Origin: Sporosarcina ureae
GTDB taxonomy: Bacteria > Bacillota > Bacilli > Bacillales_A > Planococcaceae
Reading direction: 5' to 3'
NCBI RefSeq assembly: GCF_002101375.1
Contig: NZ_CP015207.1
Span: 2,372,001 to 2,436,000, forward strand
Length of the DNA: 64,000 nucleotides
Shown here: piece by piece, positions 2 through 2,583 of the stretch
Layout: each line of letters starts with the position of its first letter
Numbering within the stretch: position 1 is the stretch's first letter
The notes under the pieces: model-generated
The model's database searches: none
What the model saw: only the letters and a program-made list of their open reading frames with translations
Told to the model about the DNA's origin: nothing
Position numbers and translations under genes: made by a program

Positions 2-334
2 GTTGCGGACATTTCTAAAGGTGGCGCTTTTGCATCGATTGTCGGCACGCTTCAACTTCTTTCAGCAGAAAGACGTCAGCGTGTCAAAGGGATTATCATC
101 AATAAGTTTTACGGCGACGCGTCCTTTTTCGAAGACGGGGTGAAATTCATTGAACAATACACCGGGATTCCGGTTGTAGGTGTCATTCCGGTCTTAGAAA
201 ACCATGGAATTCCAGAAGAAGACATGGATCGTAACACGCTTCCTGCAACAGAAGGAGTCGATGTTTACGAACAATGGGCTGCTCACGTGAAGCAACATGT
301 CGACTGGCCGTTGATTCAATCTATTTTGGCGTAA
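2..334 (+). CDS. Cobyric acid synthase-like protein (CobQ/CbiP), 3' end, short form
   Basis: The reading frame enters from the left edge and ends at TAA 334, so only the last 110 residues are visible. The opening residues [14 protein letters not shown], the later INKFYGD, and [12 protein letters not shown] match the CobQ/CbiP ATPase half that precedes the glutamine amidotransferase domain in family members. Normally about 230 more residues with a GATase Cys/His follow. Here only about 45 residues follow, ending in a helix ([20 protein letters not shown]) that resembles the extreme C-terminus of normal CobQ. The protein thus seems to lack the amidotransferase domain. CobQ amidates the corrin ring; whether this short form can is unknown. 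It sits 12 bp upstream of cobS in a same-strand cluster. Family assignment is likely; function of the short form is uncertain. Confidence 0.7.
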
Positions 335-346
335 AGGAGCGGGAAG

Positions 347-1111
347 ATGAATAGCATTTTATTAGCGCTCCAATTTTTCACGTCGCTACCTGTCCATAAA
401 GAATTGCCGCTTGGGAAAAAAGAAGTGTCCGGTATGTACATCGCGTTGCCGTTCGTCGGTGGAGCAATCGGTTTACTACTAGCAGGCGTTGCGTATATTA
501 CGAGTGATTTCAATAGTTTCCTTGCGGCGGTACTGATTTTGCTAGCAGGTCTCATTGCGACTGGCGGTTTGCATGTAGACGGTTTTGCGGATCTCGGCGA
601 TGCATTCTTTTCCTATCAAGATCGTGAAAAACGTCTGACCATCATGGATGACCCGCGGCTCGGCGCATTCGGCACATTGTCGTTACTCGTTTTACTTTGC
701 TTGAAAATCGGTTTATTCATGGAAATTCTACAGCTTGTAAACGGTTGGGCATTGCTTGTTGCGGTGCCGGTTCTCTCTCGTGCCGCTTTAGTAGCGTATT
801 ACACACTAACGAAAACCGCAAAGACAAGCGGCATTGCGTACTTTTTTAAACAACAATTCCTAAGCGGACGGATGCTAGTTGCGTCGAGCACCATTACTAT
901 CGTGACGATTATTCTGCTAACTATTCAATTGCGCTCCATTTTATTACTCCCCATTATGCTACTCGTCATATGCTTGTCGATCTGGCTTTATCATCGCTGG
1001 ACGATCAAACATTTCGGAGGCGTCACAGGGGATCTATGCGGAGCATTCATTGAAGGAATGGAGGTGCTCTTATGGCTCGTCCTTATCGTATATTTCTCGT
1101 TCGGCATTTAA
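347..1111 (+). CDS. cobS: Adenosylcobinamide-GDP ribazoletransferase (cobalamin synthase)
   Basis: A 254-residue polytopic membrane protein of normal CobS length. It joins adenosylcobinamide-GDP to alpha-ribazole(-phosphate) in the last steps of B12 assembly at the membrane. The diagnostic GGLHVDGFADLGDAF motif with its acidic Mg-binding residues lies near residue 70, followed by the conserved MDDPRLGAFG segment and several hydrophobic helices. A good AAGGAG site precedes ATG 347. The gene overlaps the following phosphatase gene by 40 bp, indicating translational coupling within the cob operon. Confidence 0.93.
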   Translation: MNSILLALQFFTSLPVHKELPLGKKEVSGMYIALPFVGGAIGLLLAGVAYITSDFNSFLAAVLILLAGLIATGGLHVDGFADLGDAFFSYQDREKRLTIMDDPRLGAFGTLSLLVLLCLKIGLFMEILQLVNGWALLVAVPVLSRAALVAYYTLTKTAKTSGIAYFFKQQFLSGRMLVASSTITIVTIILLTIQLRSILLLPIMLLVICLSIWLYHRWTIKHFGGVTGDLCGAFIEGMEVLLWLVLIVYFSFGI

Positions 1112-1665
1112 AGACGATTGCCAATGAACAGCGAGTTTATTGTGGGTGGACGGATAGCGGATTGGTGTCACTAGAAGGCGAGGCCATTGAATTACCAGTA
1201 GCTGTCCAACAGGTAATTGGAAGTGATTTGATCAGAACCCGTCAAACCGCGGCCATTTATTTTCCACAAGCAGAATTTACAGCTGATCTACGCTGGCGGG
1301 AATGTCATTTCGGAGATTTTGAAGAACAGACGTACGATCAGTTGAAAAATGACCCCGACTATCGCAACTGGCTAGACGATTCATGGAACATCCCACCGCG
1401 CAATGGGGAAACATTGCAACAAGTAAAGTCACGCGTGTTGGATGCATTAGCTGAGTTGCCGAATGAAGCGGTCGTCGTGACGCATGGCGGCGTGATTCGC
1501 GTAGTGCTCGATACATTCACACAAAACCATCGTTCGTTTTGGGAATGGAACGTAACGAACGGATCCATTTGGCAACTCGAATGGGCTAGCGAGAAAGAAT
1601 TCAAGGAGGGGAAGCCATGCACGTCTTTATCGGAGGTGCCTATAACGGCAAAACGGATTATGTGA
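1072..1665 (+). CDS. cobC: Histidine phosphatase family protein, probable alpha-ribazole phosphatase
   Basis: A 197-residue histidine phosphatase. The phosphohistidine motif appears as LVRHLKTIANE (RHxxT; the usual Gly after RH is Leu), and the second catalytic His is in VVVTHGGVIRVV. The position between cobS and a CobU-like gene supports alpha-ribazole-5'-phosphate phosphatase (CobC), which removes the phosphate during nucleotide-loop assembly. A GGAGGT site 7 bp before ATG 1072 fixes a start inside cobS. The gene overlaps the next one by 49 bp. Confidence 0.85.
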   Translation: MARPYRIFLVRHLKTIANEQRVYCGWTDSGLVSLEGEAIELPVAVQQVIGSDLIRTRQTAAIYFPQAEFTADLRWRECHFGDFEEQTYDQLKNDPDYRNWLDDSWNIPPRNGETLQQVKSRVLDALAELPNEAVVVTHGGVIRVVLDTFTQNHRSFWEWNVTNGSIWQLEWASEKEFKEGKPCTSLSEVPITAKRIM

Positions 1666-2000
1666 GACGTTGGAATGGCGATACGGCAGCTTGTTTCTGT
1701 ACAATGGATACGACAGCAACCGCTAAACCCGGTGAATCACTCATCATTTCAGATTTGCATGAGTGGCTAAAGACTACAGACATAACAGAAAGAGAAGCAA
1801 GCAATGCCGTGCGCGAAATCAGCGACCCGAACACCGTCTTCATTTTAACGGAAATCGGGCGGGGCATTGTGCCAATTGATGCACAGCAACGCGAACTCCG
1901 CGATCGATGCGGCCGTTTGTATCAGCAATTATTTGCAGAAGCGACAACTGTTACAAGAATCTGGTATGGTATTCCTCAAACAATCAAAGGAGTGAAGTGA
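1617..2000 (+). CDS. Short CobU-like adenosylcobinamide kinase homologue
   Basis: A 127-residue protein with a P-loop at the N-terminus (GGAYNGKT, residues about 6-13). Its C-terminal half (ILTEIGRGIVPIDAQQRELR, then GRLYQQL and GIPQTIKG) matches the end of CobU. Full CobU is about 180 residues and carries an RIxxHRxxRPxxW segment with the guanylylated histidine; that segment is not visible here. The protein may therefore keep the kinase fold but not the standard guanylyltransferase step. It has a strong GGAGG site and overlaps the upstream gene. Its operon context (cobS, cobC-like, adenosyltransferase) supports a role in cobinamide salvage. Confidence 0.7.
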   Translation: MHVFIGGAYNGKTDYVRRWNGDTAACFCTMDTTATAKPGESLIISDLHEWLKTTDITEREASNAVREISDPNTVFILTEIGRGIVPIDAQQRELRDRCGRLYQQLFAEATTVTRIWYGIPQTIKGVK

Positions 2001-2001
2001 A

Positions 2002-2583
2002 ATGAAAATCTACACAAAGACTGGCGATAAAGGTACGACAAGTTTAATTGGTGGACGCGTTGCAAAAGACGATTTGCGTGTCGAAGCATATGGCACGATC
2101 GATGAACTAAATTCATTCATCGGTAAAGCAATGACGGAACTAGACGGGGAGAAGTTTGCGGATATCCTGACTGATCTTGAAACGATCCAAAATGAATTAT
2201 TCGACGGTGGTGGAGACTTAGCAAACGTCATGAAAGAGCGTCATTACAAGCTCGACGAAGAACCTATCACCGTTCTCGAAAACCGAATCGATAAGCTAAT
2301 GGAAGAAGCGCCCGAACTAGAACGCTTCATCCTCCCTGGCGGCTCACCAGCGGCTGCGACATTACACATCGCGCGCACGGTCACACGCCGCGCAGAACGG
2401 GTGACCGTCACATTGATGAACGCGGCAGACGACGTATCACCCGTCGTGGGGCGCTATTTGAACCGTCTATCAGATTACCTATTCGTGGCGGCACGCATCG
2501 TGAACGCTCGACTCGGCATTTCAGACAATGAATATGTCCGTAGCGCAAAAGTATTCCGCACGAATGTGAAAAAGGATAAGTGA
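2002..2583 (+). CDS. pduO: PduO-type ATP:cob(I)alamin adenosyltransferase
   Basis: A 193-residue protein starting MKIYTKTGDKGTTSLIGG, the hallmark N-terminal ATP-binding motif of PduO-type adenosyltransferases. RVEAYGTIDELNSFIG, FILPGGSPAAATLHIARTV and the RRAER basic motif also match. It transfers adenosyl from ATP to cob(I)alamin, making coenzyme B12, the cofactor of isobutyryl-CoA mutase encoded about 10 kb downstream. It starts 1 bp after the CobU-like stop and is the last gene of the cob cluster, followed at once by a strong terminator. Confidence 0.93.
   Translation: MKIYTKTGDKGTTSLIGGRVAKDDLRVEAYGTIDELNSFIGKAMTELDGEKFADILTDLETIQNELFDGGGDLANVMKERHYKLDEEPITVLENRIDKLMEEAPELERFILPGGSPAAATLHIARTVTRRAERVTVTLMNAADDVSPVVGRYLNRLSDYLFVAARIVNARLGISDNEYVRSAKVFRTNVKKDK

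Follow-up and report, generated by a model that had tools for sequence, protein, structure and literature searches.

We examined a stretch of 64,000 nucleotides from Sporosarcina ureae (NZ_CP015207.1, positions 2,372,001 to 2,436,000; the window), which opens with the 3' part of a gene for a CobQ (cobyric acid synthase) homologue without a glutamine amidotransferase (GATase) domain. Comparison with its relatives suggested that this short CobQ is a cobyric acid synthase that has lost its glutaminase domain and now probably uses free ammonia. Tree and genome comparisons went beyond a first-pass annotation made from the sequence alone: by these, short forms have more than one origin, and some genomes that possess corrin-ring genes yielded no other CobQ. 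No report of a GATase-less CobQ was found in the open-licence literature searched.

The window edge cuts the gene, which starts 485 bases before it (Table 1). In the Pfam scan of the whole 272-residue protein, AAA_26 and CbiA were the sole domains, and GATase_3, which carries the catalytic Cys and His, was detected neither there nor in the fragment encoded by the window. The P-loop and the motifs FKSQN, EGAGS and NKF were all kept. Residues 3–239 matched positions 2–237 of the 480 in NF001989, the NCBI model for cobyric acid synthase, with 322 bits, above the cut-off of 273. On TIGR00313, residues 4–237 matched positions 1–233 of 477, and the score of 295.5 bits was under the cut-off of 309.9. 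The short CobQ probably works like CobQ but does not have one of the features that define the glutamine-hydrolysing family, and we therefore class it as a variant and not a plain member.

A tblastn search of the window with the GATase half of a full-length relative (L037) gave no GATase match (other hits, E 0.49 or higher), with the exception of the C-terminal tail. The last 31 residues of L037 matched window 239–328 (E 3.4e-4). No GATase remnant lies 3' of the gene, because cobS starts 12 bases past its stop codon. The wider CobQ family extends further than this protein, and the gene consists of a complete CobQ synthetase domain and a normal CobQ C-terminal tail of about 30 residues, with the GATase domain absent. 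Both features had been proposed from the fragment (no GATase domain, and a last helix like the normal CobQ C-terminus), and the whole gene bore them out.

Full-length CobQ of 484–485 residues occupied the same operon slot in sister lineages (L037, L043 and L049), and the short tail aligned with their C-termini. Because of this shared slot, the domain appeared to have been excised from the CobQ of the operon itself, which most likely once encoded a complete protein. This agrees with the internal deletion suggested by the first-pass annotation. In five of six pairs, the ratio of nonsynonymous to synonymous substitution rates (dN/dS) of the synthetase part was about 0.05–0.09 (the sixth gave no dS), and that of the tail was 0.05–0.24 in six pairs. 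The short CobQ is under strong purifying selection.

Further GATase-less CobQ proteins, of about 276–295 residues, were recovered from named contigs (relatives among the best 80 of at least 596 stretches) and from a 398-genome sample of the phylum. They came from Oceanobacillus (L078), Fermentithermobacillaceae (L104), a metagenome-assembled genome of Bacillota (L143), Synergistaceae/Synergistales (L151 and L153) and L176–L183. The CobQ-like tail was kept in those whose sequences were viewed, as judged by eye, the statistical match being for the S. ureae protein only. In all, 160 frames were collected. The 94-row tree omitted identical synthetase domains, copies at contig edges or bearing N, duplicates and, by hand, many near relatives; the 56 rows of a more careful tree were hand-thinned.

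The careful tree contained five changes between the short and full states, all five forced by starred branches, and a single clade of all short forms was rejected (p-AU 3.3e-6). The short forms of the same family as the S. ureae protein made a clade with a support of 91/79, which rose to 95/88 when their full-length sister group was included. The program counted state changes without direction, and their reading as losses takes the full form as ancestral. Loss of the same domain in several unrelated bacteria suggested that the short forms work on free ammonia.

Several proteins related to this comparison were observed on the way. Four full-length CobQ proteins, from L038 (L038:7854-9335), L169, L106 and L112, had Gly in the GATase Cys motif, and that of L124 was otherwise degenerate; the glutaminases of all five are likely inactive, a milder decay. 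In G576, a short CobQ (L180:6428-7273) lay close to corrin-ring-like genes, and another contig carried a full-length CobQ (L186:1330-2868). Two salvage operons with a short CobQ contained frames of 748 residues (L178:11251-13497) and 661 residues (L176:67-2052), each with an ABC ATPase part and a large remainder.

Within the order, an intact short CobQ was found in at least 92 of 261 genomes: 63 of the 68 in group g1 (Sporosarcina), 7 in g2, 6 in g12 and 16 in g14. Such counts are lower bounds, taken from matches below about E 2.6e-72 in the order and E 2e-87 in the phylum sample. The CobQ GATase half was present in 117 of the 261 genomes, and five genomes (G193, G194, G197, G229 and G142) had both short and full-length CobQ. 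CbiC, a marker for the synthesis of the corrin ring, was found in 82 genomes, 78 of which also had the GATase half. The other four were G061, where CobQ extends to the contig end, and the Sporosarcina genomes G191, G217 and G220. Only 8 of the short-form genomes had CbiC, and 84 were without it. Together with the low dN/dS, this distribution supported the earlier suggestion of a specialised short form in a salvage cluster.

In G191, G217 and G220 the short form was the only CobQ found. NCBIfam models identified cbiL, H, F, G, D, J, ET and C in G191 and G220, with SUMT in addition in G191 and CbiA in G220, and G217 carried near-identical copies of the G191 set. All three genomes had a CbiA with GATase, which in G191 and G217 was encoded elsewhere in the genome (by Pfam check in G217). 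No cobalt chelatase was identified in G191 or G220, where a 295-residue candidate of G191 matched no family at E 1e-30. To judge from these gene sets, no cobyric acid synthase other than the short CobQ is visible in the three genomes. Two other lineages (G530 with G619, and G579) had CbiC, a CbiA-sized GATase protein and a single CobQ match, the short form; these assemblies are 84–94% complete, and CbiA was judged there by size and place. If the corrin-ring pathways of these genomes are active, their cobyric acid must come from the short form.

The alignment of short and full-length proteins pointed to a small number of repeated changes. Of 69 full-length rows, a few of which have a decayed GATase, 66 kept the Gly-Arg of the EIGRAQ motif, and none of 34 GATase-less rows did so. 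L177, which stood outside the 34, reads RISVVQ and also has no Gly-Arg. In the family of the S. ureae protein and most other short forms Gly was replaced by Ser; in L078 and L180–L183 Gly was kept and Arg was changed. Residue 44 was Asn in all 69 full-length rows and in 7 of the 34 short ones. Among 70 columns conserved to at least 95% in full-length CobQ, 62 were unchanged in all five short lineages and 5 were changed in one. Only residues 44, 55 and 56 changed in three or more of the five. Two full-length CobQ proteins of Methanobacteriaceae (L131 and L137) had Ser-Val and Ala-Met, respectively, for Gly-Arg, with the GATase Cys motif present.

Control draws were made after the motif had been noticed. 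When five rows were drawn from 20 hand-picked full-length rows, 616 of 5000 draws had some column of at least 85% conservation deviating in four or five rows, so that a single deviating column is weak evidence. In a second control, five rows were drawn 2000 times from 39 hand-picked full-length rows, and conservation was computed without them. The real short set (L005, L078, L104, L143 and L151) had three columns with at least three deviating rows and two with at least four. At 95% conservation, at least three columns of the former kind occurred in 1 of 2000 draws, at least two of the latter in 1, and at least one of the latter in 6. At 90% conservation, the corresponding numbers were 40, 1 and 41.

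A profile alignment to the CTP synthase of the same genome placed residue 44 opposite the Glu that follows His57-Gly58 (hhalign probability 19.6% over 52 columns, a weak match). The constriction of the ammonia tunnel, which this position adjoins, is described at Pro54, His57 and Val60 in the Escherichia coli CTP synthase (PMC9138612), and at residues 50–58 in the fly enzyme (PMC8325340). We read the changes at residues 44, 55 and 56 as the loss of contacts with the absent domain or tunnel, together with a remodelled ammonia entry. In the proposed course of events, CobQ would lose the GATase domain from the middle and retain the synthetase half and the C-terminal tail, and the shortened enzyme would amidate with free ammonia instead of ammonia derived from glutamine.

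The S. ureae genome is a single contig of 3.35 Mb. CbiC was not found in it, and we read it as a corrinoid-salvage genome. The CobQ GATase half was absent at E 1e-8. No GATase was encoded in the salvage operon and none in the genome exceeded the GATase_3 cut-off, which answers the first-pass question of a stand-alone partner nearby; the sole weak hit was a DJ-1/PfpI protein, and other class-I glutaminases were not surveyed. A class of genomes has been listed in which CbiP and later genes, without CbiA, lie next to transporters termed cobyrinate diamide uptake, with Paenisporosarcina among the examples (PMC8123684). Such uptake is a possible source of substrate for the short CobQ.

A different explanation is that the short form has given up cobyric acid synthesis for a new job in the CbiZ-bearing operon, such as another corrinoid ligation or a scaffold for CbiB or CbiZ. 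Coexistence with full-length CobQ in five genomes and the changes at the otherwise near-invariant residues 44, 55 and 56 would fit this. Against it are the three Sporosarcina genomes, and probably two further lineages, with corrin-ring genes and no other CobQ found, and the conserved columns left unchanged in nearly every case, and we consider a new job unlikely. Supply of ammonia in trans by a separate glutaminase, as GatD does for MurT, seems more unlikely still. Split pairs of this kind exist (MurT-GatD; PMC5871853), and several other short-form genomes do encode stand-alone GATase_3 proteins. However, the genes for these (L187, L188, L191, L194, L195 and L196) adjoin a putative murT, as assigned by eye, and the S. 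ureae genome and operon offered no such partner within the searches above. That the gene is a decaying remnant or an error of sequencing or assembly is very improbable: a disrupted copy occurs in G225 (83% complete, 9% contaminated), but the frame is open over its full length in at least 92 genomes, with the selection described, and the S. ureae genome is not fragmented.

Several points weigh against a free-ammonia cobyric acid synthase as well. Most carriers in the order are without CbiC, so we infer the source of their substrate, and the coexistence of both forms in five genomes would also fit a different job. Two quicker trees, with 94 and 103 rows, gave 5 and 7 changes on the best tree, of which starred branches forced only 3. 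Three full-length rows (L124, L131 and L137) are also without Gly-Arg, and a sign test on independent pairs, three of them on well-supported branches, is unable to reach 0.05. The CTP synthase alignment, weak in itself, ends at residue 53, with residues 55 and 56 just beyond, and the motif changes could mean an altered substrate. Loss of the glutaminase with use of free ammonia remained the explanation that we consider probable. A broader version, to which we give somewhat less than even weight, is that CobQ lost its glutaminase on five or more occasions, with the tail kept and Gly-Arg broken in every case, to yield ammonia-only cobyric acid synthases that in salvage-only genomes would re-amidate under-amidated or hydrolysed scavenged corrinoids.

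A link to urease (high internal ammonia) was also considered as a requirement and was ruled out, none of the six g12 short-form genomes having urease alpha. The S. ureae genome has urease, and urease alpha (best E < 1e-20) was found in 60 of 92 intact short-form genomes versus 29 of the other 169; the groups are related and the link is unproven.

The operon reads btuF-btuC-btuD::cbiZ-cbiB-cobD-cobU-short cobQ-cobS-cobC-cobU2-pduO, with btuC assigned by eye and position, and a cobalamin riboswitch heads it (Table 1). Full-length CobU and the CobU-like 127-residue protein share the operon; residues 58–123 of the latter matched positions 104–168 of the CobU model, the C-terminal part only, and a relative of it was present in 9 of 10 syntenic operons (L051 being without). 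In G004 (L035:4046-16241) the salvage genes occurred in repeated copies, some broken by runs of unknown bases, probably an assembly artefact. Downstream of pduO, at about 2640–2950 of the window, were imperfect repeats of a ccgctcaatg... unit, with repetitive open frames on both strands.

Table 1. Positions of the short cobQ gene, its parts and the accompanying features of the salvage operon
Feature	Position	Strand	Basis
Short cobQ, whole gene, 272 residues	G000:C1:2371516-2372334 = L003:11516-12334		
Short cobQ, 3' part: residues 163-272 (last 110 codons) and stop	window 2..334	+	
GATase junction, residues ~237-244	window 224..247	+	alignment; full-length relatives hold the GATase domain (>200 residues) here; tblastn finds the tail only
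Retained C-terminal tail, residues 241-272	window 236..331	+	tblastn E 3.4e-4; helical in L075 model
cobS, next salvage-operon gene	window 347..1111	+	open reading frame and profile matches
cobC-like phosphatase	window 1072..1665	+	profile matches
Short CobU-like protein, 127 residues (cobU2)	window 1617..2000	+	profile matches
pduO-type corrinoid adenosyltransferase, last operon gene	window 2002..2583	+	profile matches
BtuD-like ABC ATPase fused to CbiZ (adenosylcobinamide amidohydrolase), 492 residues	L003:7474-8952		profile matches
Cobalamin riboswitch	L003:5238-5364		RF00174, 74.4 bits

A natural glutaminase-less CobQ with more than one origin offers a convenient way to ask to what extent a synthetase can be separated from its glutaminase, and it is a small single-domain enzyme suited to structural work. 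Residues 44, 55 and 56 are named here as possible links between the two domains. Because the short form passes NF001989, pipelines probably name it as ordinary CobQ, and surveys of gene presence may count it as glutamine-dependent.

A structure model of L075, a near relative that shares 90% identity with the S. ureae protein (pLDDT 90), superposed on dethiobiotin synthetase 1dbs over residues 1–267 (Z 19.9, 217 residues, root mean square deviation 3.2), with the tail helices 248–261 and 264–271 inside the superposition. It also superposed on the synthase domain of CTP synthase, with Z of 15–18 among the matches listed. In the model, therefore, the tail seems to be part of the synthetase fold, and this would account for loss of the domain from the middle instead of the end. 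In a sequence search of the PDB at E 0.1, dethiobiotin synthetase was the sole match for the short protein, and full-length CobQ had none.

With CobQ/CbiP (EC 6.3.5.10) the short form shares the synthetase domain, P-loop, conserved motifs, C-terminal tail and the slot between cobU and cobS; it differs in the missing GATase domain and in the replacement of Gly-Arg and, usually, Asn44. MurT/GatD is alike in that a CobQ-type GATase and its ligase are separate polypeptides, but no such GATase exceeded the cut-off in the S. ureae genome. The MurT ligase fold is unrelated to the CobQ synthetase fold. CobQ is described as making four amidations on one large substrate with glutamine as nitrogen source (PMC7242693, PMC8123684), the side chains being printed as b, d, e and f (PMC7242693). 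AhCobQ of Aeromonas hydrophila, a reported protein lysine deacetylase (PMC11856932), shares the name CobQ and is set beside the short form by description only.

Dethiobiotin synthetase (BioD) is likewise a GATase-free ligase with, by the model, the same single-domain synthetase fold. Unlike BioD, the short CobQ lies in a B12 context and not a biotin one, and it scores 45.6 on TIGR00347, where the cut-off is 83.3; a separate BioD-like protein is encoded in the S. ureae genome beside a DAPA-aminotransferase-like gene (both assigned by eye). CTP synthase (PyrG) keeps its GATase and acts on another substrate, but it resembles the short CobQ in the fold of its synthase domain and in the logic of ATP first and ammonia second, and it can use exogenous NH3 (PMC9138612).
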